DNA from: Cyathus striatus
Taxonomy: Eukaryota; Basidiomycota; Agaricomycetes; Agaricales; Nidulariaceae
Direction of reading: 5' to 3'
NCBI GenBank assembly: GCA_025738555.1
Contig: JAOVFP010000013.1
Span: forward strand, 1,178,001-1,242,000
Length of the DNA stretch: 64,000 bases
Position 1 is the stretch's first letter. Every line of letters starts with the position of its first letter. Below are positions 5,512 through 64,000 of this stretch, one piece after another. Both the position numbers and the translations under genes were made by a program. Under the pieces are notes generated by a model. The model was not told the origin of the DNA. It worked only from the letters and a program-made list of their open reading frames with translations, and did no database searches.

Positions 5512-7137
5512 ATGATCCCCACCCCTACTTCTGAAATAGAGGCACACCCGCGTCCGAGGGATGTTGGTATCCTTGGAATGGAGGTATACTTCCCCCGTCG
5601 TGTATGTATTTCCTGTTTCATGCTACCTATTTCTATCCGATTTTTTATTTCTTCGCTACGTTAGTGTGTGTCGGAGGCAGATCTCGAGGATTACGATAGC
5701 GTATCGAAGGGAAAGTACACCATTGGCCTTGGTCAGGAGTACATGGCGTGGCCAGATGATCGCGAGGACATTAACTCCTTCGCTTTGAACGGTATATATC
5801 TATCTCGAATCGCCATGCTATGTTACTCACATAACATTATAGCTGTCTCTGGTCTCTTGGAGAAGTTCAATGTCGACCCTATGTCTATTGGTCGCATCGA
5901 TGTTGGAACTGAGACGATCATCGACAAGTCAAAGTCCGTCAAGACCACCCTCATGGACCTCTTCGTGGGGTCTGGGAACACTGACATTGAGGGAATAGAC
6001 TCCAAAAATGCCTGTTATGGTTCTACTGCAGCTCTCTTCAACGCCTTGAATTGGATTGAATCCAGTTCCTGGGATGGCCGCAACGCTATTGTGGTCGCTG
6101 CTGACATCGCCGTTTATGCAGAGGGTGCAGCCCGCCCTGCTGGTGGCGCTGGTGGAATTGCCATGCTTATTGGTCCTGACGCCCCCATCGTCTTTGAACG
6201 TAAGTGGTACCAACCAATTCCACCTCTGATATACGCTACATTCTCTCGTATTAGCCATCCATGGCAATTACATGGCAAACACTTACGACTTCTGCAAGCC
6301 TCAGCTCTCCTCTGAATACCCAGAGGTCGACGGCCCCATATCTGTCGTGACTTACATTGCTGCTTTGGATGCTGCCTACAGCGTGTATTGTGAGAAGCTC
6401 GCCCGCTCCGCCAAACGCCAATCTCAAGAGGTACATTTCTCTCTCGAGTCCGTTGACTACGCCATATTCCACAGCCCCTTCGGCAAACAGGCGATAAAAG
6501 GCCACGCCCGCATGATGTTCAACGATTACCTCGCTAACCCCACCGCACCCCGCTTTGCTAATGTCCCCAACCCCGAATCCTTCCTCGAGACTACTCACGC
6601 GTCATCCCTTACCGACAAGAATATCGAGAAGACTTTCATTGCCATTGCCAAGGAAGATTTCAAAAAGCAGGTAGACCCCGCTATGGCTTGCTCACGCCGC
6701 CTCGGTAACATGTATACTGCTTCCCTCTATGGTTGCCTTGCTTCGCTCGTATCTACCATTGAGCCTACTGAACTCAAGAACAAGCGAGTTTCCTTGTTCG
6801 CCTTTGGCGGCGGTTGTGCTGCTAGCTTCTTCGTTGCACATGTAAAGGGCGATACATCTGATATTCGAGAGAAGATGGATCTTCTCAGCCGTCTTGCTCA
6901 GATGAACGTGGTTCCTCCTCAACAATTCGTTGATGCTCTTGCTGTAAGTACTTTCTCGTCTGCGTAGTCCTGTTAGTGAGTGCTCATATAATATCTTGAT
7001 AGCTTCGTAAGAAGAACCACAGTTCAGTCGATTACATACCTGAGGGATCAGTGAAAAATATTTGGCCTGGTGCATATTACCTTGCGAGTGTTGATAAGAA
7101 GTACAGGAGGAAATATTTGAGGGCACCTGTGGTCTAA
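5512..7137 (+). CDS. ERG13: Hydroxymethylglutaryl-CoA synthase (HMG-CoA synthase)
   Basis: Condenses acetyl-CoA and acetoacetyl-CoA to HMG-CoA in the cytosolic mevalonate (sterol/isoprenoid) pathway. I read five exons: 5512-5601, 5665-5791, 5843-6199, 6255-6943 and 7003-7137, totalling 1398 nt, i.e. 465 residues, the usual eukaryotic length. All introns are GT...AG and 51-63 nt long. The N-terminus contains [13 protein letters not shown]. The general acid/base Glu lies in [14 protein letters not shown], the acyl-accepting Cys in [13 protein letters not shown], and the catalytic His in [19 protein letters not shown] and the Gly-rich [12 protein letters not shown] strand near the C-terminus are also family hallmarks. 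The start ATG gives the expected short leader before the first beta strand. No lesion was seen; it is likely a functional housekeeping gene. Identification is secure; the symbol follows yeast usage. Confidence 0.96.
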
Positions 7138-20660: not shown

Positions 20661-21218
20661 TCACCAATTCGTACGGACGATCTGCCGAATTTCTTCAACA
20701 ATATCAAGGAGTCTTCGTCGGCCATCTTCTTCGAGAATGTTAAGACCCCAACGATCAACAGGCGCAGTGTCGTCAGAGCTTTCGACCAGAGGAGGTATTA
20801 TAACGCGTGTATCACGATCGTATGAATAGAAGCAGATGTGCGTTCCGAACGCGCACATGCCATACAGTTTAGGAATCTGTAGACTCCCACCGAGCTGTCG
20901 AAATCTGTTCCGCATTTCGTTGTCGGCCTGTTTCCGTTCGTGAGGGTCACCAAGAAGGGTTGGCACATATATCTCAACGAAGAAGACGACTTTGTGAAGC
21001 TCTGTTCGGATAACAAAGGGAATGAAGTCGTCAGAATGGGGTGTAACGGTGTCCGTTAAATAAGTAAGCTTGCAAATGGGATAAAGCATGAACCGGTCCT
21101 CCACGGGAAAGCTGATGTACAAAATGCGAGTATAAAGAGGATATATATACTCTTTGATGGTCTGTGTATCCGATGCGGCGGACGACATGAAAGTGACAAC
21201 GTTATCATTCCACGGCAT
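20661..21218 (-). CDS. Orphan 185-residue protein, paralogue 1
   Basis: Single-exon gene; not a family I can name. I start at the ATG at 21218 (MPWNDN) rather than the in-frame ATG 36 nt upstream because the paralogue at 31542-32099 begins at the same place and has exactly the same length. The two proteins are closely similar throughout, e.g. DDFIPFVI, HKVVFFVEIYVPTLLGDPHE and IPKLYGMCAFGTHICFYSYD. Length conservation without frameshifts suggests selection. The alpha/beta pattern with an acidic 'DDF...VVFFVEI' core recalls a nuclease-like (PD-D/ExK) fold, but no catalytic Lys is visible, so that is speculation. It runs opposite in direction to the nearby broken esterase, unlike its paralogue. 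Confidence 0.65.
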   Translation of the reverse strand: MPWNDNVVTFMSSAASDTQTIKEYIYPLYTRILYISFPVEDRFMLYPICKLTYLTDTVTPHSDDFIPFVIRTELHKVVFFVEIYVPTLLGDPHERKQADNEMRNRFRQLGGSLQIPKLYGMCAFGTHICFYSYDRDTRVIIPPLVESSDDTAPVDRWGLNILEEDGRRRLLDIVEEIRQIVRTNW

Positions 21219-21893
21219 GGCGGGCTGAAAGTCGTTCGAAGAGCTTATACACACATTATTTGTACCCTACAGTAATGATCGTGGCCTCGAACTCATATTA
21301 CATCGTTGTACAAACAGACCTTAGCTTTGCGTCATTGCTTATGCAATAGACATTCTACCTTTTTTCTAATAGTATATGACCACGATCTACTCTTACATCG
21401 TCTTTATTTCATTACACACAACCGAACACCTCTTTAACACCATCCGTGTACCTTCTACATTTTCAGCCTCGTTATTAAGATTTATTCTCAGTCCTCACTC
21501 CAGATCATTCAATTTGTTCTGTTTTGCTGTACATTCAAAATATTCGTCTCTAATGTAATATCTTTACACTACCATACGACAGCCTGTGTCGTGGTCAGAA
21601 ATTTAGGAGTAGAACTAGAACTTCGATTCTTACTTCCTAACAATTCTTGATTAATCTTAAACCGCGTGCCGGATGAATTGTACCCCAAAACCTTATTCAA
21701 GTCTGCACTGGCGTTCTTTTTGTATTATCCCCTGCTTCTCCGATGTATTAGAGAAAACGTAAATTCTTATATGGTTCCGTTTCACAAGTTGCATCTGTAG
21801 TTGTAATAGCAATTGAATTAGACCCACAGTGTGTTAGTTAAAAAGGAATCCTTATGCGAGCTTCTTGCTTCAACGAGCTCAAAGTGAGGAAAA
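21219..21893. other. Intergenic, nothing recognised
   Basis: Upstream side of the orphan gene. The sequence is AT-rich with no supported feature. Confidence 0.4.
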
Positions 21894-31497: not shown

Positions 31498-31504
31498 TAT
31501 AAAT
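31498..31504 (+). promoter_or_regulatory. TATA box of orphan paralogue 2
   Basis: TATAAAT is 44 nt upstream of the ATG at 31542. That is consistent with starting at this ATG and not at the GTG-led extension of the frame. Confidence 0.55.
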
Positions 31505-31541
31505 AGTGTGTGTAGTCTCTTCGAACGATATCTGGCTCATC

Positions 31542-32099
31542 ATGTCATGGACTGATAAGACTGTTACTTTCATGTCGTCTGCTGTATCGGACACAGAGAC
31601 TATCAAAGAATACTTCTATCCTCTTTACCTTCGCATTTTATACATCAGCTTTCCAGTTGACCAGAAGTTCATTCTATTTCCTCATTGCAACATTACTTGT
31701 GTAACGGACACTGTTACACCCCCTTCTGACGACTTCATTCCCTTTGTTATCCAAACCAAGATTCACAAGGTGGTCTTTTTCGTCGAGATATATGTGCCAA
31801 CCCTTCTTGGTGACCCTCACGAACGGAAACAGGCCGACAACGAAATGCGGAACAGATTTCGACAGTTCGGTGGGAGTCTACAGATTCCTAAACTGTATGG
31901 CATGTGCGCGTTCGGAACACACATCTGCTTCTATTCGTACGATCGTGATACAGGCGCTATCACACCTGCTCCAGTTGAAAACACTGACGACACTGCGCCT
32001 ATTGATCGGTGGAGCCTTAGCATCCTCGAAGAAGATGGCCGCCTAAGACTCCTTAATATTGTTGAAGAAATCCGGCAGATCATCCATACGAACTGGTGA
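31542..32099 (+). CDS. Orphan 185-residue protein, paralogue 2
   Basis: Single exon, 558 nt, MSWTDKTVTFMSS to IIHTNW. Same length as the gene at 20661-21218 with substitutions only. Shared blocks include DDFIPFVIQT, KVVFFVEIYVPTLLGDPHE, KQADNEMRNRFRQ and LYGMCAFGTHICFYSYDRD. I do not recognise the family; the C-terminal third is acidic (ILEEDG...IVEEI). The homology continues past the stop codon, so the copy arose by DNA duplication. It stands directly upstream of, and in the same direction as, the intact carboxylesterase. A more distant relative may be the gene at 58593-59120. Confidence 0.7.
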   Translation: MSWTDKTVTFMSSAVSDTETIKEYFYPLYLRILYISFPVDQKFILFPHCNITCVTDTVTPPSDDFIPFVIQTKIHKVVFFVEIYVPTLLGDPHERKQADNEMRNRFRQFGGSLQIPKLYGMCAFGTHICFYSYDRDTGAITPAPVENTDDTAPIDRWSLSILEEDGRLRLLNIVEEIRQIIHTNW

Positions 32100-36492: not shown

Positions 36493-36983
36493 GATGTACA
36501 AAATCGAAGCCCTCACGCGCTGCGGCCACGCCCAAGAACAAATTAATTAATCAACGTTCGTCAACTCAATCGTCAACTGGCAAATTAAATGGCAGAGGTG
36601 GTATGTTCTTTCTGCATTTCATTGCATCAGTCATCAACTGTTTCCAGTATACCGAGGTGTAAATGGGAAAATGTAATCGAGAGGCGTTCCGTATACACTC
36701 AGCTAATTCCTCCTTCGTCGTGGCCCCTTTGCGTTGATTGAAGTCTTAAGGTCAAGTCACAAAACAAGTATAGATATCATTCGTACGAACTCAGGATACA
36801 TCAAACAACAATCAATATCTAGCAAGAATCAAGGAACTGTTTTATAATTGGTTTTCTGAAGTGGGATGTCCGTCTATCAAGAGTGTAAGAGCAGGCTCTA
36901 AAAGAGAACATCGATCGCATATAGCCAACTCACATATGGGTATCCAAAGTCAACTCATTCTAGAGCGCAAGCTATGTATTGCA

Positions 36984-38164
36984 TTAGTCGGTCTCATCTA
37001 CGGCACTCTGGAATTCAAGTTATTTCTGATCATTTTCGAAATGAAGAAAGGAAGTACATACAGCGGATGGGGCGGCGGCCGTTGGAACTGCTGCTGAAGT
37101 CTCATCTACGGCTGACTGGAAATCAAGTTATTTTCTGATCATTTTCAAAATGAAGAAACGAAGTACATACAGCGGATGGGGCGGCAGCCGTTGGGACTGC
37201 TGAAGTCTCATCTACGGCACTCTGGAATTCAAGTTATTTTCTGATCATTTTCGAAACCAAGAAATGAAGTGCATACAGCGGACGGGGCGGCAGCCGTTGG
37301 AACTGCTGCTGAGGGGGTAGCCGTTGAATTTCCTGCTGAGGGAGTAGCAGTTGGTGTTCCACCCGCCTGACTCGGAGACGGCAATGGAAAGCCAAAAGAT
37401 GGGAACCCAGACCCCCCGAACGGAAACCCGCCGGTGGGGAAGGCAGGAAATCCAGATGCGCCACCAGAGGGAAGGCCAGAGAAGGACGGGAATCCTGGGA
37501 AGCTGAATTGACGTCGCTCATTGGCATCCGCTGCTGAAGTCTCATCTACGGTTGACTGGAATTCAAGTTATTTTCTGATCATTTTCGAAACGAATAAACG
37601 AAGTACATACAGCGGATGGAGCGGCGGCCGTTGGAACTGCTGCTGAAGTCTCGGCACTCTGGAATTCAAGTTATTTTCTGATCATTTTCAAAACAAAGAA
37701 ACGAAGTACATACAGCGGATGGGGCGGCGGCCGTTGGAACTGCTGCTGAAGTCTCATCTACGGCTGACTGGAATTCAAGTTATTTTCTGATCATTTTCGA
37801 AACCAAGAAACGAAGTACATACAGCGGATGGGGTGGCGGCCGTTGGGACTGCTGCTGAGGGGGTAGCAATTGAACTTCCTGCTGAGGGAGTAGCAGCTGG
37901 TGTTCCACCCGCCTGACCCGGAAACGGAAATGGAAAGCCTAAAGATGGGAACCCAGATCCTCCGGACGGAAACCCGCCGAAGGCTGGAAATCCAGATGCG
38001 CCACCAGAGGGAAGGCCTGAGGAGGACGGGAATCCTGGGAAGTTGAACTGACGTCGCTCATTGGCGTCCAATGCGTTATTGCGACCCTCTACGGGGGATG
38101 GAGCGCCGAGGGCGGTAGTACTGATGAGTCCTACGAGAGCAACGAGCTTGAACGAGTTGAACAT
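36984..38164 (-). CDS. Secreted Phe/Gly/Pro-rich protein with dibasic sites and exon-encoded 18-residue repeats, paralogue A
   Basis: Seven exons: 37823-38164, 37714-37767, 37611-37658, 37277-37555, 37171-37221, 37062-37115 and 36984-37007; 852 nt, 283 residues. Introns are 55 nt, except the last at 54. The signal peptide FKLVALVGLISTTALG-AP is followed by a short pro-region ending NERR, a Kex2-type site. The core then starts QFNFPGFPSSSGLPSGG. Exon 4 contains a second core preceded by DANERR, so the precursor holds two core modules. The other exons encode copies of SAVDETSAAVPTAAAPSA with small losses, and the last exon encodes SAVDETD and stop. Function unknown; processing to peptides or a cell-surface role is inference. 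Reading through the introns gives only short out-of-family tails. Confidence 0.8.
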
Positions 38165-38225
38165 GTTGTGGAGTGAATTTGGAACTTGGGCTTGAAGTTG
38201 ACATTGAGAGCAGTGTTATTGACCT

Positions 38226-38232
38226 CTTTATA
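38226..38232 (-). promoter_or_regulatory. TATA box of paralogue A
   Basis: TATAAAG on the minus strand about 62 nt before the ATG. The same motif and spacing are kept at paralogues B and C. Confidence 0.65.
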
Positions 38233-38399
38233 CCGCAACGTACACAAAGTCTGGTACGCTTACATTTTTTTCACTGAGGACTCTGGTGAGTACGCGGGTA
38301 AACCAGCAACGCCTAGTACCACAGATCATGGTTTCCGTGACAAGTGAAAGAGTCTAAGAACCGCATCAAGACGACCTGTCGATTCAAATGTTTACTCTT

Positions 38400-39630
38400 T
38401 GATCAACTTGCGAGAGAACTTGATAATCAAATGCCATGCAAAGGCTAAAAATAATAAGAAGGATGGCGTAGTGCAAAGAAGGTATCGATAGTTTTGGATA
38501 AACACATAGGAATAGGTAAATAATGATGCAGATTGCGCAAAACCGACTTGCAGGGCGCTGTTCTTGGCGAAGTAAGTAGAAATTCGTACCACTGTATGTC
38601 GTCATGAAAACCGCAAACTGGCCCTAAGTAAAATTTGAGTTAGATTAGTACGCATATAGGAAAGAAATGGCGCGGCAGAAGAAGGAAGATGAGAGATGGA
38701 ACATACCGTCAGCTCCACACCCGCAACACCGTAAAACAAGCAACAGCCGCGTCGGATTCGTCGCATTGGATCATCACTGTTCAAGTGCGCGTTCCCGCTA
38801 ATTGTTACCTATCTCCGGCAGCGACAAAAATAAATATCTTCTGAACTGAGAAGTAGTGCTACTACTTTTGTAGTAGTTCTGGATGCAGTGATCGCAAAAG
38901 AAGGTCACTGAGGGAAAGTAGCGGTTACCAGTCAATGAGTTGATCGCTAGCGGCTGATATGCGTCCAATTAACAATGTTCAAGACGTCAAGTTAACGCCG
39001 GTCTCAAGCTGATAAGCAATCGCAAGTCGAGTCGTTGTCAATGTTATAAAGGCTCTTCATCCAAATGTCGATGTAACACATAGACATAAAGCGCGACTGT
39101 GAGGGCAGGAGAACATGCCCAGCTCACCTGTTCTGAATTTCGTTTCCCATCGGAGTAGACAATAATTAATGATGCTTCACGCGCACGATTGATTCCAGTT
39201 CACCATTAATGCTTGTCCACAGACTGGGACTTCAATTGAGTTCCGTAGCTGGAGTAAGTTTCTGCGACTGTTACTAGTAGATACATCGTCATAATCAGTA
39301 TTCCATTCATCAAGGTGCGATACAAGGAAATGAGGGATATGAAAGCTGTACTAATGCATCGAATAGAGAAAAAAGGATTGGGTGGTAGAAACAATACAAT
39401 GAAAAACTCCAGACTCACAGAGCACCGTAATTGAGCGTCCTCCATCCATCCAAGTATGTGGCTTCATTACCTTCGGCGTAGAATAGATGAGCTACTCGTT
39501 TTACATGGAAGACGGTATGCTGTGTCCGACGTTGATAAGAGAAGTTCGGGTTCAAGGCAGAGCATCCAGGACATCTTGAGGACATCATCTTGTGGTCACT
39601 CGGTGGGCCAGTGTGATATGTCATTGGCAC
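38400..39630 (-). pseudogene. Degenerate membrane-type gene, block A copy
   Basis: The three blocks share scattered open stretches on this strand but in shifting frames. One is an N-terminal piece near 39630-39420 (MMSSRCP... and NEATYLDGW), and another is a hydrophobic tail at 38392-38592 (ISTYFAKNSALQVGFAQSAS, then YVFIQNYR). The tail is preceded by an intron ending at a TTACTTAG acceptor and by GPV, resembling the start of a first membrane helix in mushroom membrane proteins. I cannot thread one frame through, and the copies differ by indels, so decay is likely. Confidence 0.4.
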
Positions 39631-39975
39631 TGACAGTGACAGTGACAGTGATAGGGTTTCAGATCGAGCCTCGACTCAAATCTTTGAGAACAGGAAGTAA
39701 GTAGCAAGCGTAGCGCTCGGAGCGAGCATGAAATTGGCATGGAAGTTGGAACATCGGAAGCCAACGCAGGCAAATGGCACTCCTATTACGTAAATGAATT
39801 TATTCCCACAAACCGAATTGAGACGCGTCAAATCACTGCCAATCAGTGGGCCGCGGCATGGGCTGGGCTCGAGAGTCGAGCCGGGACCCTCGAACTCCTG
39901 CGTTGTGGCTGCAAGGCCTTGATGTGCTTCTTCTCTCTTCTCTCTTCTCTTAATTTCAAATTTGGAACCGAATCT

Positions 39976-40840
39976 ATTCACACCACGCTCTAGACTAAAC
40001 TAATGAATGCTCACCTTACCCAACACCCCTTCAATATAGAATCAATATCATATTAAAGGTGAGTAATCAATTGCTAACGTGTATGCTAACATTTATATTC
40101 AAAGGAATACACCAGTGTTATAGGAATACAAGAACCATAACAGTGGGGTGGGCCGCAGTGTAGTGTGCACTAAGACCACCGACCGTCGTTAGTACTGAAG
40201 GAATTTAAGGGCGCTCAGTTGGTGCCTTAGAGACTAAGTACCTCTAACTCCGAATCTGATAAACCAATATCAATAGTTCTTTTGAATATTCAAGTTGATC
40301 TCTCAGCGCGTGTAATTTGGTTGAAATATGGTTTCAGAAACTGAGATTTATGATGGGTACATACATTATAAGTACGATACAGTACTTCATTCTATTTGCA
40401 AATCTAAGGACCAGCTTTGATGTACTTATAATACTGCATATCACTTGTGCGATAGTAACGGACACCCCGGACACGCGATTTCCAACAGACCCTACGTGGA
40501 AGGTTCCCGTGCCCTCGAGTCTGACACGAACCTTAAAAGCTTCCTTCCTATCCATGCTAATCACTTATCTGGAAAACGAAATTAAATGCTTACGTTATGT
40601 TCAATATAAGCCCGAATTGCTATATACCCATGGAACTATGCACTCGTGAGTTACACTTACACCCACCATTAAGGCTCAAGTGACATCCTAACAAGAGCGA
40701 CTGCCAGTGAGATTATTATACAACCATCCATAGTCTGTTTCCTTCTGTTCCCTTTCTATCGAAGGATATGTCTTACTGATTGCGTTTTGTGTCTTAAGCT
40801 TAAGTCTGACAGGCGGTGGGAAGGATGTATCTTCCAAGGA
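39976..40840. other. Intergenic, nothing recognised
   Basis: Between block A and the DUF6534-like gene. Only short ORFs (40317-40649 and its opposite) without a recognisable motif. Confidence 0.35.
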
Positions 40841-47223: not shown

Positions 47224-48173
47224 ACATGTAACGTACGTCGCTTCGCGACGCACGTTAAAGGGCAAGCTTGACGAATCCTAGTTTTTTTGTTATTTCCTTT
47301 TTATACATAATAAGTTTACTTGTTAGATACTCATTCAGGAGTTGCTGACACCTGGATTGGCAGAAACCTCACTTGGATAAGAAATTTACTTTCACATTTC
47401 CTGTTAGGAGACAGAAACCTTTTTATTGATTGCCTGTGCATTATTTTATTTATTTTACCTTCATTCTAATTATATTATCTTCATTATAATATTTTTCCTT
47501 TGTTTTACTAGCTGCAAATAGCTGTTACAGCATTTCCACAGTTATGCACTCATTTTAATAGTTTCCATTTTATTTTAATTATTCAACAGTGAGAAAATCA
47601 AGGGTAAATATATGGAAACACTTTATATGGGAGTTATGTATGTGGCAGTTACCTAATAAGTATCCAATAAGTAGCATTTGAAGTGGTTATGGAAAAGTAT
47701 ATAAAAGAATTTAAAGTAATTTGATATACAAGCTATTTAAATAAGCAGAGATATTTTAATGATGAGAATGTGTCTAATTTATGTGAGGTTTGATACAGTA
47801 ACATTTTGTGAAATTGTGTTCTGTGCACGGTGCGCGACAACTTGGCGACAACTCGAAGAGAGGTAGGTGCTGACTAATGCACCGCGCATGCACAGCCACT
47901 ACGCATTTTGGGTCGCCAGAGTCGCTGACTAACGTTCCGTGCATGCACAGCCACTATGCATTTCGCGTCCCCAGAGCTGCTGACTAACGCACCGTGCATG
48001 CACAGCCACTACGCATTTTGGGTCCCCAGAGCTGCTGACTAACGTTCCGCGCATGCATAGCCACTATGCATTTTGGATCCCCAGAGCTGCTGACTAAGAA
48101 ATTCCGTGCATGCACAGCCACTATGCATTTTGGATCACTAACGCAAACAAATAGGGAGAGCAAGCTCTCCCAA
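47224..48173 (+). mobile_element. TA-flanked, hairpin-ended non-autonomous element, long copy
   Basis: The start ACATGTAACGTACGTCGCTT contains a hairpin (AACGTACGTCGC / GCGACGCACGTT). The end has the hairpin GGGAGAGC-AA-GCTCTCCC followed by CAA. TA lies on both sides. The ends are not inverted copies of each other. The interior holds a 55-bp minisatellite. The same ends delimit the shorter copy at 48535-48849, where an empty site is available for comparison. Confidence 0.65.
47873..48142 (+). repeat. Minisatellite, 55-bp unit, about 4.8 copies
   Basis: Unit CTGACTAACG(TT/CA)CCGTG, then CATGCACAGCCACTA.GCAT, then TT..G(G/A)TCCCCAGAGCTG. Units start near 47870, 47924, 47979, 48034 and 48089. 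Part of one unit (GATGCACAGCCACTACGCAT) is present in the short element copy. Confidence 0.8.
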
Positions 48174-48849: not shown

Positions 48850-49244
48850 TAAATGGCAGCGGTGGTACGTTCTTTCTGCATTTCCTTGCATCAGTCATCA
48901 ACTGTTTCCTACCCAAGTGTAAATGGGAAAATGTAATGGAGAGGCATTCCGTATATACTTAATTCATGCTTTGTCGTGGCCCCTTTGCGTTGAATTGAAA
49001 TCTCAAGGTCAGGTCACAAAACAAGTATAGATATCATTCGTATGAACTCAGGATACATCAAACAACAATCAATATCTAGCAAGAATCAAGGAACCGTTTG
49101 TTTTATAATTGGTTTTCTGAAGTAAAATGTGCATCTATCAAGAGTGTTAGAGCCTGCTCTAAAAGAGAACATCGATCGCATATAGCCAACTCACATATGG
49201 GTATCCAAAATCAACTCATTCTAAAGGGCAAACTATGTATTGCA

Positions 49245-49883
49245 CTAGTCGGTCTCATCTACGGCACTCTGGAATTCAAGTTATTTTCTGATCATTTTCG
49301 AAATGAAGAAACGAAGTACATACAGCGGATGGGGCGGCGGCCGTTGAAACTGCTGCTGAAGTCTCATCTACGGCTGACTGGAATTCAAGTTATTTTCTGA
49401 TCATTTTCGAAACCAAGAAACGAAGTACATACAGCGGATGGAGCGGCGGCCGTTGGGACTGCTGAAGTCTCATCTACGGCACTCTGGAATTCAAGTTATT
49501 TTCTGATCATTTTCGAAACGAAGAAATGAAGTGCATACAGCGGATGGGGCGGCAGCCGTTTGAATTTCTGCTGAGGGGGTAGCTGTTGAATTTCCTGCTG
49601 AGGTAGTAGCAGTTGGTATTCCACCCGCCTGACTCGGAGACGGCAATGGAAAGCCAAAAGATGGGAACCCAGACCCCCCGAACGGAAACCCGCCGGTGGG
49701 GAAGGCAGGAAATCCAGATGCGCCACCAGAGGGAAGGCCAGAGAAGGACGGGAATCCTGGGAAGCTGAATTGACGTCGCTTAGCGTCCAATGCGTTTTCG
49801 CGACCCTCTACGGGGGATGGAGCGCCGAGGGCGGTAGTGCTGATGAGTGCTACGAGAGCAACGAGCTTGAACGAGTTGAACAT
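49245..49883 (-). CDS. Secreted Phe/Gly/Pro-rich protein with exon-encoded repeats, paralogue B (short form)
   Basis: Four exons: 49539-49883, 49433-49483, 49324-49377 and 49245-49268; 474 nt, 157 residues. All three introns are exactly 55 nt. Signal peptide FKLVALVALISTTALG-AP, pro-region ending DAKRR (Kex2-type site, without the Glu seen in A and C), then one core QFSFPGFPSFSGLPSGG with GGSGFPSFGFP. Only two full or nearly full 18-residue repeats follow before SAVDETD-stop (TAG here, TAA in A and C). The second core present in A and C is absent, so this is the shortest form. Function unknown. Confidence 0.78.
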
Positions 49884-49941
49884 GTTGAATAAATCTGGAA
49901 CTTGGGCTTGAAGTTGACATTAAGAACGACAATATTGACCT

Positions 49942-49948
49942 CTTTATA
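49942..49948 (-). promoter_or_regulatory. TATA box of paralogue B
   Basis: TATAAAG on the minus strand, 59 nt before the ATG; conserved in all three paralogues. Confidence 0.65.
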
Positions 49949-50039
49949 CCCCAGCGCACGCAGAGTCTAGTACACATACATTCTTTTCACTGAGGACTCT
50001 GGTGAGTATGCGGGTAAATCAATAACGCCTAGTACCACA

Positions 50040-51449
50040 GGTTGTGGTTTCCGTGACAAGTAAGTCTAAGAACCCGCGTCGGGACGATTGTAGATTCAAA
50101 CGTTTGCTTTTGGATCAGCAGGTGAGAGAACTTGATGAACAAGAACCAGACTGATGCTAAAAATAATAAGTATGGCGTAGTACAGAGTTGAAGTCCTCGA
50201 TAGTTTTGGATAAACATATAGGAATAGGCAAGTAGTTATGAATCAGATTGCGCGAGGCTGATCTGCAGGGCACTAGTCTCGGGTAGTAAGTAGAAATTCG
50301 TGCCATTGTATCGTCATGTAAACCCCAAACAGGCCCTAAGTAAAATTTGAGTTGGATTAGTACGTATGTAGGAAAGAAATGGCGCGGTAGGAGAAGGAAG
50401 ACGAGAAAATGGAACATACCGTCAGCTCCATATCCGCAATACTGCGTTAAACGGGCAACAACCGCGTCGGATTCGTTGCAGGGATCATTGCCGTTGTGCG
50501 CCTTTCCCCTAATTCTTACCTATCTCCGACAGCGACAAAAATAAATTCCTTCTGGACTGAGCAACAGTACTACTGCATTCGTAGTAGTTCTGAATGGAGT
50601 AATCGCAAGAGGAAGTTTACTGAGAGAAAGTAGTACTTACGAGTCGAGGAGTTGCCAAACGCTACCGGCCATAGCGTCCAACAAACAACATTCAAACGTC
50701 AAGTTGACGCCGCCGGTCTCGACTTCCGACTTAGCTGATGAGCAATCGCAAGTCGAGTTGTTATAAAATTTCTTCATGCAGACGTCGATGTAAGTTTCGG
50801 TTAAGATGGTACGATTAATATTGCTAACACTGGCACACAGATATACGGTGCGACTGTGAGGGCAGGAGAACATGCCCAGCTCGCTTGTTCTGAATTTCGT
50901 TTCCCATTGGAGTAGACAATAATTAATGACACTTCACGCGCATACTTGTTTCCAGTTAAGTATCAAAGTATCAACGTATGTCCACAGACCGAAACTTCAA
51001 TTGAGTTCCGTAGTTGAAGTAAGTGTTGCAACTGTTACTAGTAGAAACATCGTCATAATCAGCATTCTATTCATCAAGGAGCGGTGCAAGGAAATGGAAG
51101 AAATGAAATGGAACTAAATATGACAGGAGAAGATGATCGTATTACATAGATGTACCAACAAATCGAATAAAGAAAGAGGATTGGGTTGTAGACATGATGC
51201 AATGAAAAACTTGAGACTCACAGAGCACCGTATTGAACGTCGAATCCATTCATCCAAGGATGTAGCTTCATTACCTTTTGCACAGAAACAGTGAGCTATT
51301 CGTTTTACTTGGAACAATACGGTATGTCGTGTGTCAGGCGTTGATAAAAGCCGTTCGAGTTCAAGGCAGAACTCATCCAGAACATCTTGAGGACATCTTG
51401 AGGACATCATCTTGCGATCACCCGGTGTGACATGTGAATCGGTGACCAC
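50040..51449 (-). pseudogene. Degenerate membrane-type gene, block B copy
   Basis: This is the best-preserved of the three copies. The 5' part reads VLDEFCLELERLLSTPDTRH and QVKRIAHCFCAKGNEATSLD in one frame, then a GTGAGT donor. Further on are NNSTCDCSSAKSEVETGGVN with N-glycosylation sites and Cys pairs, CNESDAVVARLTQYCGYGAD, and after an 80-nt intron a hydrophobic tail. The tail has an internal stop at about 50237 in the frame used by A and C. I suspect a secreted or membrane protein gene in decay and cannot name it. Confidence 0.4.
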
Positions 51450-51596
51450 CGTTGATACTGACAGTGACAGCGTGTTAAGTTGTTTTCAGATCGAGTCTCA
51501 ACTCATATCTTTGAGAACAGAAAGTAAGTAACAAACGTAGCGCCGGGAGAGAGCATGGAATTGGCATGGAAGTCGGAACATCGGAAGCCAACCAAA

Positions 51597-51745: not shown

Positions 51746-54018
51746 TATGGAAACCCGGAGCACCACGCTCAGAAGCATCAATATATTTCGTGCTCCGAGC
51801 GACGGCTGCTCGGCAAATCGCTTGTGCCTTCGCTTAGATATCTGTGCTCCGGTAATGAAATTCGGTAGCGACTCGCCTCGGCCAGGTTTTTCGCTAGGCG
51901 ATTACGTAAGCATGGTCACGAGCGTCGTTTCTACAAAGGAAACGACGCTCGTGACCTGAGTGATAGACTGCACCTTGGCCTTCTTTTTTAAAGTCAGGTT
52001 TAGCATCCTCTGGGGCAAGCTGCCTTGACCTTCTTATAGTTATTCATGTAAGTAAATAGCTATACAGTTGCATGCAAAAGAATGAGCATGCCTATTTTTC
52101 AAAAGTAGCAAAAAGTAATCTTCTCTAAAATCTCACATACTTGCTCAATTTCATGTAATTTTATATAATTGTACTACATATGTATAAATGCTATTTACAT
52201 TAGTTATAAAGGGTAAAAAGTGGAAAATTCAATGTCTGGTGGTATATATATCAAATATACCAAAAATGCGAAAATTAACCCCAATTAACCATGATTTTGG
52301 CAGATCAATTTACTTGATAATACCACAATCTGAATATGGATATATAAAGAAGTATCTACACTTGTTCTACATTAAATTATGTGTGGAAGAAATGAAATCT
52401 GGGTGCAGGAGAACCCAAACAATTTGAGGGTATAAAAAGCATATGTTTTATTATTCAAGCTGTATCTTCCTAACCAAGCCAGGTGGATACATAGTTAAAC
52501 CTGCATAGCACTTTAGAATGTAGTACTATAGATGAGCAAATAATTGTATTGAACATACAAGATATGAGCTTGCTAGATGCAAAAGAATATAAGCAAAATA
52601 TGTAAATCAGCATGAATTTGTGTTAGACATTCTACAAGAAATACTTTGAATTACATCCTCATACTATTGGTAGATATAGACATCTACAGTTAAAATGTAT
52701 ACTAAAAGTATTGTAAGCAGTGAGTATCCAAATGCTGAGATAATGTCCCATGATGTTTGAGAATTTGGCCCAAAAATGCTTTCTTCTTTGTATTTCAAGC
52801 CAAATTTTTGAACTTCATCAAATATTATCTCAGTAACTAGATTCTCACTGCTTATAATATTTTTTGTATACATTTTAACTGTAGATGCCTATATTTACCA
52901 ATAGTATGAGGGTGTAATTCCAGCTATTTCTTGTGGAATGTCTGACACAAATTCATGCTGTTTTACATATTTTGCTTATATACTTTTACACTTAGCAAGC
53001 CTATATCTTGACTGTTCAATACAATTCTCCACTCATCTATATTACTACATTCTAGAGGTATGTTGCAAGTTTAAGTATGTACTTACCTCACTTGGTTAGG
53101 AAGATATAGCTTAAATAATAAAACATATGCTTTCATACCCTCAGATTGTTTGAGTTCTCCTGCACCCAATTTTTATTGTTTCCTCACATAACTTAACATA
53201 AAACAAGTATAGATATATCGCTAAATATCTATATTCAGATTATGGTATTATCTAGTAAATTCAGTTGCCAAAAATGTGGTTAATTGGGGTTATTTTCCGC
53301 ATTTTTGGTATATTGAATATATATATTACCAACATCAAATTTTTTACTTTTTTACCTATATAACTCATGTAAATAGAATTTATGCATATATAGTACAAGT
53401 ATACAAAGGTACACAAATATTAAGCAAGTATTTACAATGTTAGAGCAGATTCCTTTTTACTGCTTCTGAAAAATAGGCACACTCATTCTTTTTGCATGCC
53501 ACCATATTAATATCTGTAGCACTATTATTAACTTGTTCTAAATATACTATGCACACTACTTCCCAATTATAACTCACTGTTAATTTGTAGCTATATACTT
53601 ACAATGACAATGTGTAACTATAAGAAGACCTATGCACTACCAGCTTTCCTTGGTTTATTTCTATCCAACTCACTACTGAACATCTTGACCTGAGCATTCA
53701 TATCTAGGTGAAGGCATAAGCAATCTGCTGAGAAGCCAATGCTCGGAGCACAAAATATTTTGATGCCTCTGAGCATGGTGGTTCGGGTTTCCATAGTCTA
53801 TCTCTCAGGTCACGAGCATTGTTTCTACTAAGGAAATGACGCTCGTGACCATGCTTATGTAATTACCTAGTGAAAAACCTGACTGAGGCGAGTCGCTACC
53901 GAATTTCATTATCGGAGCACAAATATCTAAGCAAAGGAACAAGTGATCTGCCGAGCGGCTGTAGCTCGGAGCACGAAATATATTGATGCTTCTGAGTGTG
54001 GTGCTCCAGGTTTCCATA
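51746..54018. mobile_element. 2.27-kb near-complete palindrome (foldback element) with 6-bp target duplication
   Basis: The ends (TATGGAAACCCGGAGCACCA and reverse complement) are flanked by GATAAT on both sides (51740-51745, 54019-54024). The inverted match continues inward through nearly the whole element. The left arm 51746 to about 52740 pairs with the right arm about 52825 to 54018, leaving a central spacer of about 80 bp. The right arm also has an extra partial terminal copy at about 53740-53800. No transposase ORF. The outer 20 bp match the 4.3-kb element at 7732-12019, so the two belong to one family. Confidence 0.88.
51914..51956. repeat. Perfect 18-bp hairpin inside the palindrome's left end
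   Basis: GGTCACGAGCGTCGTTTC, 7-nt loop, then its exact reverse complement. The matching hairpin in the right arm (about 53808-53850) has several mismatches. Confidence 0.9.
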
Positions 54019-59760: not shown

Positions 59761-60204
59761 TATATGTAGGCACTGAGGTCATTACTTCATAGTTGAGTAT
59801 TTGAATATTGCTATCTAGGACAGCTAAGTACGAATAGATTCAGTTCCAAATTTGAAATTTAAGAGAAGAGAGATTCGAGAGGAAGCACATTAAGGCCTTG
59901 CAGCCACAACGCAAGAGTTCGAGGGACCCGGCTCGACTCGAGAGCCCAGCCCATGCCGTGGCCCACTGATTTGACGCGTCTCAATTCGGCTTGTGAGAAT
60001 AAACTCATTTACGTAATAGGAGTGCCATTTGCCCGCGCTGGCTTCAGGTGTTCCAACTTCCATGCCAATTCCATGCTCTCTCCGAGCGCTACGCTTGCTA
60101 CTTACTTCATGTTCTCGAAGATCTGAATCGAATCTCGATCTGAAAACAACTTAACATCCTGTCACTATCAGTGCCAACGACATGTCACACCGGGGGACCG
60201 GAAG

Positions 60205-61360
60205 ATGATGTCCTCAAGATGTCCTGGATGTTCTGCCTTGAACTCGAACTTCTTTTATCAGCGTCGCACACGGGATATCGTCTTCCATGTAAAACGAGTA
60301 GCTCATCGCTTCTGTGCCAAAGGTAATAGAGCTACATACTTGGATGGATGGGGGACGTTCAATATGGTGCTCTGTGAGTCTCAAGTTTTCATTGTATCAT
60401 GTCTACCACTGAATCCTTTCTTCTTTATTCGATGCATACACTTACTTCAACTACGGAATTCGATTGAAGTCCTGGTCTGTGGACATGCACTAATGCTAAA
60501 CTGAAATCAAGTATGAGCGTGAAGCGTCATTAATTATTGTCTACTCCGATGAGAAACGAAATTCAGAACAGGCGAGCTGGGCGTGTTCTCCTACCCTCAC
60601 AGTCACACCGTATGTCTATATTCCAGTGTTAACAATATTAATCGTACCATCTTAACCAGAACTTACATCGACGTTTGCATGGAGAGCTTTTATAACAACG
60701 ACTCGACTTGCGATTGCTTATCAGCTAAGTGGAAGTCGAGACCGGCGTCAACTTGACGTTTTGAACATTATTAATTGGACGCATGCCAGCCGCTGGCGAT
60801 CAACTCATTGACTGGTAACCGCTACTTTCGCTTAGTAACCTTCTTTTGCGATCACTGCATTTAGAACTACTACGAAAGTAGTAGCATTACTTCTCAGTTC
60901 AGAAGATATTTATTTTTGTCGCTGCCGGAGATAGGTAACAATTAGCGTGAACGCGCACTTTAACGGTGATGTCCATGCGACGAATTCGACGCGGCTATTG
61001 TTTGTTTTACACAGTGTTGCGGGTGTGGAGCTGACGGTATGTTCCATTTTCTCGTCTTCCTTCTTTTGCCGCGCCATTTCTTTCGTATATGCGTACTAAT
61101 CCAACTCAATTTTTACTTAGGGCCAGTTTGTAGTTTGCATGACGGCATACAATGGTACGAATGTCTACTTACTTCGCCAAGAACAGCGCCCTACAAGTCG
61201 GTTTTGCGCAATCTGCATCATTATTTACCTATTCCTATGTGTTTATCCAAAACTATCGAGGCCTTCTCTGCACTACGCCATCCTTCTCACTATTTTTAGC
61301 CTTTGCATGGAAATTAATTATCAAGTTCTCTTGCAAGTTGATCAAAAAGTAAACATTTGA
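60205..61360 (+). pseudogene. Degenerate membrane-type gene, block C copy
   Basis: Matches the copies at 38400-39630 and 50040-51449. It lacks about 60 bp after GTGAGTCTCAAG that the other two have. The tail frame (ISTYFAKNSALQ-like, VFIQNYRGLLCTTPSFSLFL) stays open to 61352. The frame is broken relative to block B in the 5' part. Confidence 0.4.
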
Positions 61361-61511
61361 ATCGACTAATCGTCTTGATGCGGTTCTTCGACTCTTTCAC
61401 TTGTCACGGAAACCATAATCTGTGGTACTAGACGTTACTGGTTTACCGACGCACTCACCAGAGTCCGCAGTGAAAAAAATGTAAGTGTACTAGACTCCGT
61501 GTATGTTACGG

Positions 61512-61518
61512 TATAAAG
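61512..61518 (+). promoter_or_regulatory. TATA box of paralogue C
   Basis: TATAAAG, 61 nt before the ATG at 61579. Motif and spacing are the same in paralogues A and B. Confidence 0.65.
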
Positions 61519-61578
61519 AGGCCAATAACGCTGCTCTCAATGTCAACTTCAAGCCCAAGTTCCAGATTTCTTCACAAC

Positions 61579-63138
61579 ATGTTCAACTCGTTCACACTCG
61601 TTATTCTCGTAGGACTCATCAGTACTACCGCCCTCGGCGCTCCATTCCCCGTAGAGGGTCGCGATAACGCATTGGACGCCAAAGAGCGACGTCAATTCAA
61701 CTTCCCAGGATTCCCGTCCTCCTCTGGCCTTCCATCTGGTGGCGCTGGTGGTGCATCCGGATTTCTAGCCTTCCCTATCGCCGGGTTTTCGTCCGGAGGA
61801 TCTGGATTCGCATCTTTTGGCTTCCCATTTTCGTTCCCGAGTCAGGCGGGTGGAACACCAACTGCTACTCCCTCAGCAGGAAGTTCAACAGATACCCCTT
61901 CAGAAAGTTCAATGGCTACCCCTTCAGCAGCAGTTCCAACGGCTGCCACCCCATCCGCTGTATGTACTTCGTTTCTTCGTTTCGAAAATGATCAGAAAAT
62001 AACTTGAATTCCAGTCAGCCGTAGATGAGACTTCAGCAGCAGTCCCAACGGCCGCCACCCCATCCGCTGTATGTACTTCGTTTCTTCGTTTTGAAAATGA
62101 TCAGAAAATAACTTGAATTTCAGTCAGCCGTAGATGAGACTTCAGCACCAGTCCCAACGGCCGCCGCCTCATCCGCTGTATGTACTTCGTTTCTTCATTT
62201 TGAAAATGATCAGAAAATAACTTGAATTTCAGTCAGCCGTAGATGAGACTTCAGCAGCATCCCCCGTAGAGGGTCGCAATAACGCATTGGACGCCAATGA
62301 GCGACGTCAATTCAACTTCCCAGGATTCCCGTCCTTCTCTGGCCTTCCCTCTGGTGGCGCATCTGGATTTCCTGCCTTCCCCACCGGCGGGTTTGTGTTC
62401 GGAGGATCTGGGTTCCCATCTTTAGGCTTTCCATTTTCGTTCCCGAGTCAGGCGGGTGGAACACCAACTGCTACCCCCTCAGCAGCAGTCCCAACGGCCG
62501 CCACCCCATCCGCTGTATGTACTTCGTTTCTTGGTTTCGAAAACGATCAGAAAATAACTTGAATTCCAGTCAGCCGTAAATGAGACTTCAGCAGCAGTTC
62601 CAACGGCCACCGCCCCATCCGCTGTATGTACTTCGTTTCTTCGTTTTGAAAATGATCAGAAAATAACTTGAATTCCAGTCAGCCATAAATGAGACTTCAG
62701 CAGCAGTCCCAACGGCCGCCGCCCCATCCGCTGTATGTACTTCGTTTCTTTGTTTCGAAAATGATCAGGAAATAACTTGAATTCCAGTCAGCCGTAGATG
62801 AGACCTCAGCAGCAGTTCCAACGGCCGCCGCCCCATCTGCTGTACGTACTTCGTTTCTTTGTTTCGAAAATGATCAGGAAATAACTTGAATTCCAGTCAG
62901 CCGTAGATGAGACCTCAGCAGCAGTTCCAACGGCCGCCGCCCCATCTGCTGTACGTACTTCGTTTCTTTGTTTCGAAAATGATCAGAAAATAACTTGAAT
63001 TCCAGTCAGCCGTAGATGAGACTTCAGCAGCAGTTCCAACGGCTGCCGTCCCATCCGCTGTATGTACTTCCTTTCTTTGTTTCGAAAATGATCAGAAAAT
63101 AACTTGAATTCCAGAGTGCCGTAGATGAGACCGACTAA
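61579..63138 (+). CDS. Secreted Phe/Gly/Pro-rich protein with tandem exon-intron repeats, paralogue C (long form)
   Basis: Ten exons: 61579-61959, 62015-62068, 62124-62177, 62233-62514, 62570-62623, 62679-62732, 62788-62841, 62897-62950, 63006-63059 and 63115-63138; 1065 nt, 354 residues. All nine introns are exactly 55 nt, phase 0, starting GTATGTAC or GTACGTAC and ending TT(C/T)CAG. Signal peptide FTLVILVGLISTTALG-AP, pro-region ending DAKERR (Kex2-type site), core QFNFPGFPSSSGLPSGG. Exon 4 carries a second pro-region and core (SPVEGRNNALDANERR then QFNFPGFP). Seven exons encode SAVDETSAAVPTAATPSA or variants, and the last encodes SAVDETD. I start at the ATG matching A and B; an in-frame ATG 39 nt upstream exists. 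Function unknown. Confidence 0.82.
61960..63114 (+). repeat. 109-bp exon-intron tandem array
   Basis: 54-nt exon plus 55-nt intron repeated; seven repeat exons of 54 nt plus one expanded exon (62233-62514). Introns differ by only a few bases from one another, e.g. TTTCTTCGTTTTGAAAATGA against TTTCTTTGTTTCGAAAATGA. Confidence 0.9.
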
Positions 63139-64000
63139 TGCAATACATAGTTTGCGCTTTAGAATGAGTTGATTTGGATACCCATATGTGAGTTGGCTAT
63201 ATGCGATCGATGTTCTCTTTTAGAGCCTGCTCTTACACTCTTGATAGATGGACATTTTGCTTCAGAAAACCAATTATAAAACAGTTCCTTGATTCTTGCT
63301 AGATATTGATTGTTGTTTGATGTATCCTGAGTTCATACGAATGATATCTATACTTGTTTTGCGACTTGATTTTGAGACTTCAATCAACGCAAAGGGGCCA
63401 CGACGAAGGAGGAATTAGGTGAGTATATACGGAATGCCTCTCCATTACATTTTCCCATTTACATTTGGGTATACTGGAAACAGTTGACGACTGATGCAAG
63501 GAAATGCAGAAAGAACATACCACTGCTGCCATTTAATTTTCCAGTTGACGATTGAGTTGACGAACGTTGACACGCGTTGATTAATTAGTTTGTTCCTGGG
63601 CATTGGCCGCAGTGCGTGAGGACTTCGATTTTGCAGTGTGCACTTATCGGTCGCAGACCCCCGCAAGTTTCACAAGTTAACAACAGCCGATCTAGAACAA
63701 TCATCCTGAGAGTCGAGAGAGAGCTGTACGTGCAACCGACGATATTGAATTATACAAGATTTGAATACAAAAGACTCGGAAACTCTTGAATAGCGTCGAT
63801 CCCATATGAACCCACTCTAACGACGTACTCATCCGTTCTCAAGACTACCTCCCAGCAAGCGCACAACACACACCAGAATCCGACTGTTTGGCGGAAGACG
63901 GAGAGTCGTAAACGAACTCGTTGAATTGTATCGTCTATCCGGAACCCACTCTTCTACTTGTCGGTATTTCATAATAAGGAATACATGTCCAATTAGTAGG
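63139..64000. other. 3' flank of paralogue C and window edge
   Basis: To about 63790 it matches (reverse complement) the flanks at 36493-36983 and 48290-49244. This stretch includes the uninterrupted site without the TA-flanked insertion (about 63520-63545). The last 200 bp are unmatched with no gene seen. Confidence 0.5.

Follow-up and report, generated by a model that had tools for sequence, protein, structure and literature searches.

Tandem duplication of an exon-plus-intron unit as the probable origin of intron arrays in three paralogous genes of Cyathus striatus

Gene A, located near the end of the window (the whole stretch of 64,000 nucleotides of Cyathus striatus DNA analysed here), is interrupted by nine nearly identical introns, and its repeat unit of 109 bp consists of a 54-nt exon and a complete 55-nt intron. 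Tandem duplication of this exon-plus-intron unit, by recombination or slippage, very probably shaped gene A and two paralogs, genes B and C, which appear to encode small secreted proteins; a fusion of two genes may also have had a part in A and B. The first-pass annotation of this DNA had already proposed intron multiplication by tandem duplication. The proposal stands as the best explanation of the indels, of the nine, six and three introns of the paralogs, of the near-identity of units A6 and A7 and of the matching proteins, whereas the rarity that it implied does not, a structure of this kind having been published before. The organization of gene A is as follows:

61579..63138, forward strand: coding span of gene A, with ten exons and nine introns; predicted 354-aa protein, the spliced translation being open from ATG to TAA
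61512..61517, forward strand: TATAAA, 67 nt 5' of the ATG, with counterparts at gene B (-68) and gene C (-65)
61579..61959, forward strand: exon 1, with a signal-peptide-like start (judged by eye), core 1 (RRQF...QAGG) and an Ala/Ser/Thr/Pro tail
61960..62232, forward strand: first array block, introns 1-3 and two 54-nt exons
61960-62014, 62069-62123 and 62178-62232, forward strand: introns 1-3, 55 nt each
62233..62514, forward strand: exon 4 (282 nt), a second core copy without signal peptide, which divides the array 3+6
62515..63114, forward strand: second array block, introns 4-9 and five 54-nt exons
62515-62569, 62624-62678 and 62733-62787, forward strand: introns 4-6, 55 nt each
62842-62896, 62951-63005 and 63060-63114, forward strand: introns 7-9, 55 nt each
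63115..63138, forward strand: last exon, SAVDETD and stop

All nine introns of gene A are 55 nt long, in phase 0 and of the GT-AG type, start with GTAYGTACTTC, end with CAG and differ from one another at 6 of 55 positions at most, in agreement with the first-pass annotation. The frame that it had followed to SAVDETD-stop was confirmed too, since removal of the introns leaves 354 open codons. The exons measure, in order, 381, 54, 54, 282, 54, 54, 54, 54, 54 and 24 nt, seven internal ones thus being 54 nt long. Tandem Repeats Finder detected a 109-bp period over 61922-63131, with 11.0 copies, far above chance. The 109-bp array described at first pass holds for seven of the eight steps from intron to intron; the remaining step spans 337 bp because exon 4 carries the second core copy, and the array is accordingly split into three and six introns.

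Self-comparison of the window, with pieces joined by eye, placed each of the three genes in a duplicated block of about 3 kb or more. Their coordinates, in addition to those of gene A, are:

59832..63633, forward strand: duplicated block at gene A
about 36499-39979, reverse strand: copy of the block at gene B
38164-36984, reverse strand: gene B, 283 aa, six introns (3+3) and two cores
37822-37768, 37713-37659 and 37610-37556, reverse strand: introns of gene B, first block
37276-37222, 37170-37116 and 37061-37008, reverse strand: introns of gene B, second block, the last being 54 nt
about 48850-51592, reverse strand: copy of the block at gene C
49883-49245, reverse strand: gene C, 157 aa, three introns and one core
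49538-49484, 49432-49378 and 49323-49269, reverse strand: introns of gene C

The three paralogs, with nine (A), six (B) and three (C) introns, lie within one 26-kb stretch, and in each of them a TATAAA is found 65-68 nt 5' of the ATG. Exons that follow an intron open with TCAGCC or AGTGCC, both coding for Ser-Ala, except for one exon of gene B that opens with TCAACC (Ser-Thr); AGTGCC opens the last exon in all three genes and three internal exons of B and C.

We infer that the introns of gene A are spliced. When the first exons, the second cores and the repeat exons were each aligned at the DNA level, eight internal indels appeared, of 9, 6, 24, 3, 27, 30, 6 and 3 nt, every one a multiple of 3; of the 33 indels in the flanks on the 5' and 3' sides, 6 are (Fisher p = 3e-5), and the sole indel within an intron is of 1 nt. 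Retention of any single intron, tried for all 18, introduces a stop inside the retained intron. A length of 55 nt is ordinary in this window, since the HMG-CoA synthase gene at 5602-7137 (Pfam PF01154) has four introns of 51-63 nt; those of 51 and 55 nt are bracketed by homology to solved structures, while those of 63 and 59 nt were placed by eye.

The unspliced translations of A, B and C end alike, in ...VCTSFL(R/G)FENDQKIT-stop, which raises the question of whether the gene extends no further than intron 1, with ...VCTSFLRFENDQKIT as the end of the protein and the rest as a non-coding 3' satellite with old exon copies. We consider this very unlikely. Restricting the comparison to exons past intron 1, the indels are again all multiples of 3 (4/4, p = 0.003). 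The core-2 exons (282 and 279 nt) are open in the spliced frame only, the other two frames containing 1 to 3 stops each, and spliced A, B and C all finish at the same SAVDETD-stop. A search with protein C at E 1 recovered, from 1534 candidates, three Cyathus striatus proteins (P0001-P0003; 155, 155 and 130 aa), which cover 88-100% of the C product with 78% identity and a best E of 4.8e-58. The lineage of these relatives suggests Nidulariaceae, the bird's nest fungi. They span 3, 3 and 2 repeat junctions of the spliced product and finish in its form, with SAVDETD in two and GAVDDTD in one, never with ENDQKIT. These are known as proteins only and their genes may be intronless, so that what they back is the coding sequence rather than the splice sites themselves. 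The measure of selection on the repeat exons gives the stop in intron 1 some room: pN/pS is 0.57 over 10 repeat exons and 0.51 and 4.02 for the same exons in the shifted frames, and being no lower than in one of the two shifted frames it is uninformative on selection. For the cores, pN/pS is 0.49 (5 cores, 10 pairs).

Of the three protein searches, the two that used protein A gave no homolog, which we counted against tandem duplication of the unit in genes for secreted proteins: the whole protein had no match at E 0.001 among the 7993 candidates scored, those with the most words in common, and residues 1-96 had none at E 1 among 796 candidates. A scan of proteins A and C against 24736 Pfam models gave no match at E 0.1, and a scan of the window against Rfam no match at the gathering score. 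Elsewhere in the window, a pair of similar ORFs at 20661-21266 (reverse strand) and 31503-32099 (forward strand) is inverted, with 84% DNA identity over 665 bp and no Pfam match, and an inverted self-match of about 1.4 kb with 81% identity at 52067-53502 may represent an inverted repeat element. Between B and C, at 47868-48133, lies another tandem repeat, with a unit of 55 bp (4.8 copies, 86% matches); that it shares its length with the introns looks coincidental.

The products of A, B and C are probably secreted, with the signal peptide judged by eye. Each would consist of a signal-peptide-like start, a core with RRQF rich in Phe, Pro and Gly, and a tail of 18-residue repeats, whose Ala/Ser/Thr/Pro composition leads us to guess at a role at the cell surface or in the matrix. 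KEX2-processed repeat proteins are described as having repeated peptide cores with dibasic sites at their flanks (PMC9769878). Dibasic pairs are found here at residues 37 and 187 of A, 37 and 162 of B, and 35 and 36 of C (KRR), all at a core, and no dibasic site occurs between the 18-residue repeats of A, B or C; thus, going by that description, these are not typical proteins of the KEX2-processed kind.

We propose that the tail is coded by a tandem DNA repeat composed of the 54-nt exon and the 55-nt intron, the latter presumably an ordinary spliceosomal intron. Out-of-register recombination or slippage between near-identical units would shift their copy number, and every event would add or remove one exon and one intron at once. 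The frame would survive such gains and losses because all exons are multiples of three and all introns are in phase 0. In a larger event, one gene made of a core and an array would have been joined to the end of another, producing the pair of cores now seen in A and in B.

Near-identical introns at many sites are typical of introners, and the same array could be read as introner-like mobile elements repeatedly inserted into an older exonic repeat. Introners are near-identical introns dispersed across many unrelated genes. A search of the genome (107,453,461 bases in 24 contigs, match counts being lower bounds) with one 109-bp unit gave at least 23 matches, all 23 inside A, B and C, on which ground we reject a dispersed introner; a search with the first-exon protein gave at least five matches, located in A, B and C, with A and B matching a second time in their second cores. 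Moreover, every 18-residue repeat in A, B and C has its intron, and exons and introns diverge to about the same extent between units (5.8% and 4.9%), as would be expected if they were copied together. This comparison covers the 10 of 18 units whose intron is 55 nt and whose next exon is 54 nt long, the other 8 having been dropped. Values of 9.3% for exons and 5.5% for introns had suggested that introns were more conserved, a difference inflated by a 3-nt deletion unaligned in two rows, and this idea was rejected. Repeated insertion therefore has hardly any probability left.

Equally remote is an origin of every intron afresh, in which an AG/GY site within an exon was duplicated in tandem and so gave rise to new splice sites. 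This route of intron gain is documented (PMC2891723, PMC4974935), and it may account for the very first intron. However, no AG/GY motif is present at the boundaries, which read GCT|GTAYG...CAG|TCA or CAG|AGT, and what is repeated is whole introns with their splice signals.

Comparison of individual units is consistent with tandem duplication of whole units. A single difference in 109 positions separates unit A6 from unit A7, a pair that seems to have arisen by recent tandem duplication within gene A. Units B1 and C2 also differ at 1 of 109 positions, which shows shared ancestry or exchange between the genes. In the same way, a comparison of 53 codons shows no difference between the second core of B and the core of C, which suggests recent exchange between these two genes. 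The alignment gave no sign of gene-specific concerted evolution among the introns, a possibility that the first-pass annotation had put forward for examination: introns differ by 5.6% within genes and 5.4% between genes (permutation p = 0.73), while divergence of the flanks from gene to gene is 7-18%. This pattern would fit either exchange between genes or constraint on short introns, which the data do not separate. As introns are no closer within genes than between them, independent growth of each array is invisible in most units. For whole units, no gene-specific likeness was detected at p = 0.08, in an alignment where a 3-nt deletion is unaligned in two rows.

The joining of two genes has left fainter traces. 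The first core of B equals the core of P0001 except for a two-residue gap, and P0003 has the stretches SFSGLPS and FPTGG in common with the second cores; over gap-free columns, its core is 90% identical (89-90% depending on gap direction) to the first and second cores of B alike. The genes behind P0002 and P0003 may be adjacent. In a small tree of the cores, supports range from 0 to 0.85. These likenesses suggest, if weakly, that A and B come from the fusion of two such genes.

Because the splice sites, donors as well as acceptors, can nearly stand in for one another and every exon length is divisible by three, the array could also act at the RNA level as a generator of length, stochastic exon skipping yielding a ladder of proteins that all end in SAVDETD, and the shared introns serving as recombination sites between paralogs. 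Every subset of exons remains open to the SAVDETD end (256/256 for A, 32/32 for B and 4/4 for C). We regard this role as unlikely.

Arrays of this kind are known. In the basidiomycete Cryptococcus neoformans, gene CNN00420 is reported to contain a repeat of about 107 nt with exon ends and a full intron, supported by ESTs and differing between strains (PMC2395259). From that description, gene A resembles it in being a basidiomycete gene with near-identical introns inside the repeat and an intron number that follows the repeat number. The features that define the kind are present here: a unit with a full intron and an exon, near-identical introns, and paralogs with 9, 6 and 3 introns. Unlike CNN00420, described as a single-copy gene with EST and strain data, gene A has more introns (nine), three paralogs in its family and a core duplication, and is known from the DNA of one assembly.

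Published accounts of other systems follow the same logic, mostly at a larger scale, as in spider silk genes, SmPoMuc, SOWgp and LPA. In the spider flagelliform and MaSp2 silk genes, where unequal crossing over has been proposed as the cause of the repeated units (PMC1885213, PMC9779670), exon-intron units are likewise repeated and successive introns are nearly identical. In contrast to Argiope silk, whose introns are described as homogenised within a gene and divergent between genes, those of A, B and C are equally alike within and between genes; the proteins are also different. As in gene A, the repeats of the Schistosoma SmPoMuc mucins and of Coccidioides SOWgp are reported to be exons with near-identical introns, and SmPoMuc forms a clustered multigene family of varying copy number (PMC2576457), although its unit is given as about 1 kb with a 27-bp exon, compared with 109 bp and a 54-nt exon here. 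Human LPA is similar in that a copy-number-variable unit of exons and intron, kringle IV type 2, sets protein length, but that unit spans 5.6 kb and its two exons measure 160 and 182 bp (PMC6314250). In human polyubiquitin UBC, splice sites at repeat boundaries are said to permit a variable repeat number (PMC10809524), as they would here; there, dual-specific AGGT sites delimit the monomers, whereas A, B and C use dedicated introns between exons.

With CNN00420 and these parallels published, the structure of gene A is not new in kind; it adds one case and leaves the list of known routes of intron gain unchanged. No description of the A/B/C family was found among the literature matches listed, a corpus of titles and starts of abstracts with most subscription journals outside it. 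What sets this family apart is the small unit, the nine introns of gene A, the 9/6/3 series of paralogs and the freely interchangeable splice sites. It is a very compact natural case in which the number of introns goes together with the number of protein repeats, and the paralogs, along with the Cyathus striatus proteins, would allow the rate and direction of such events to be measured across strains and species.
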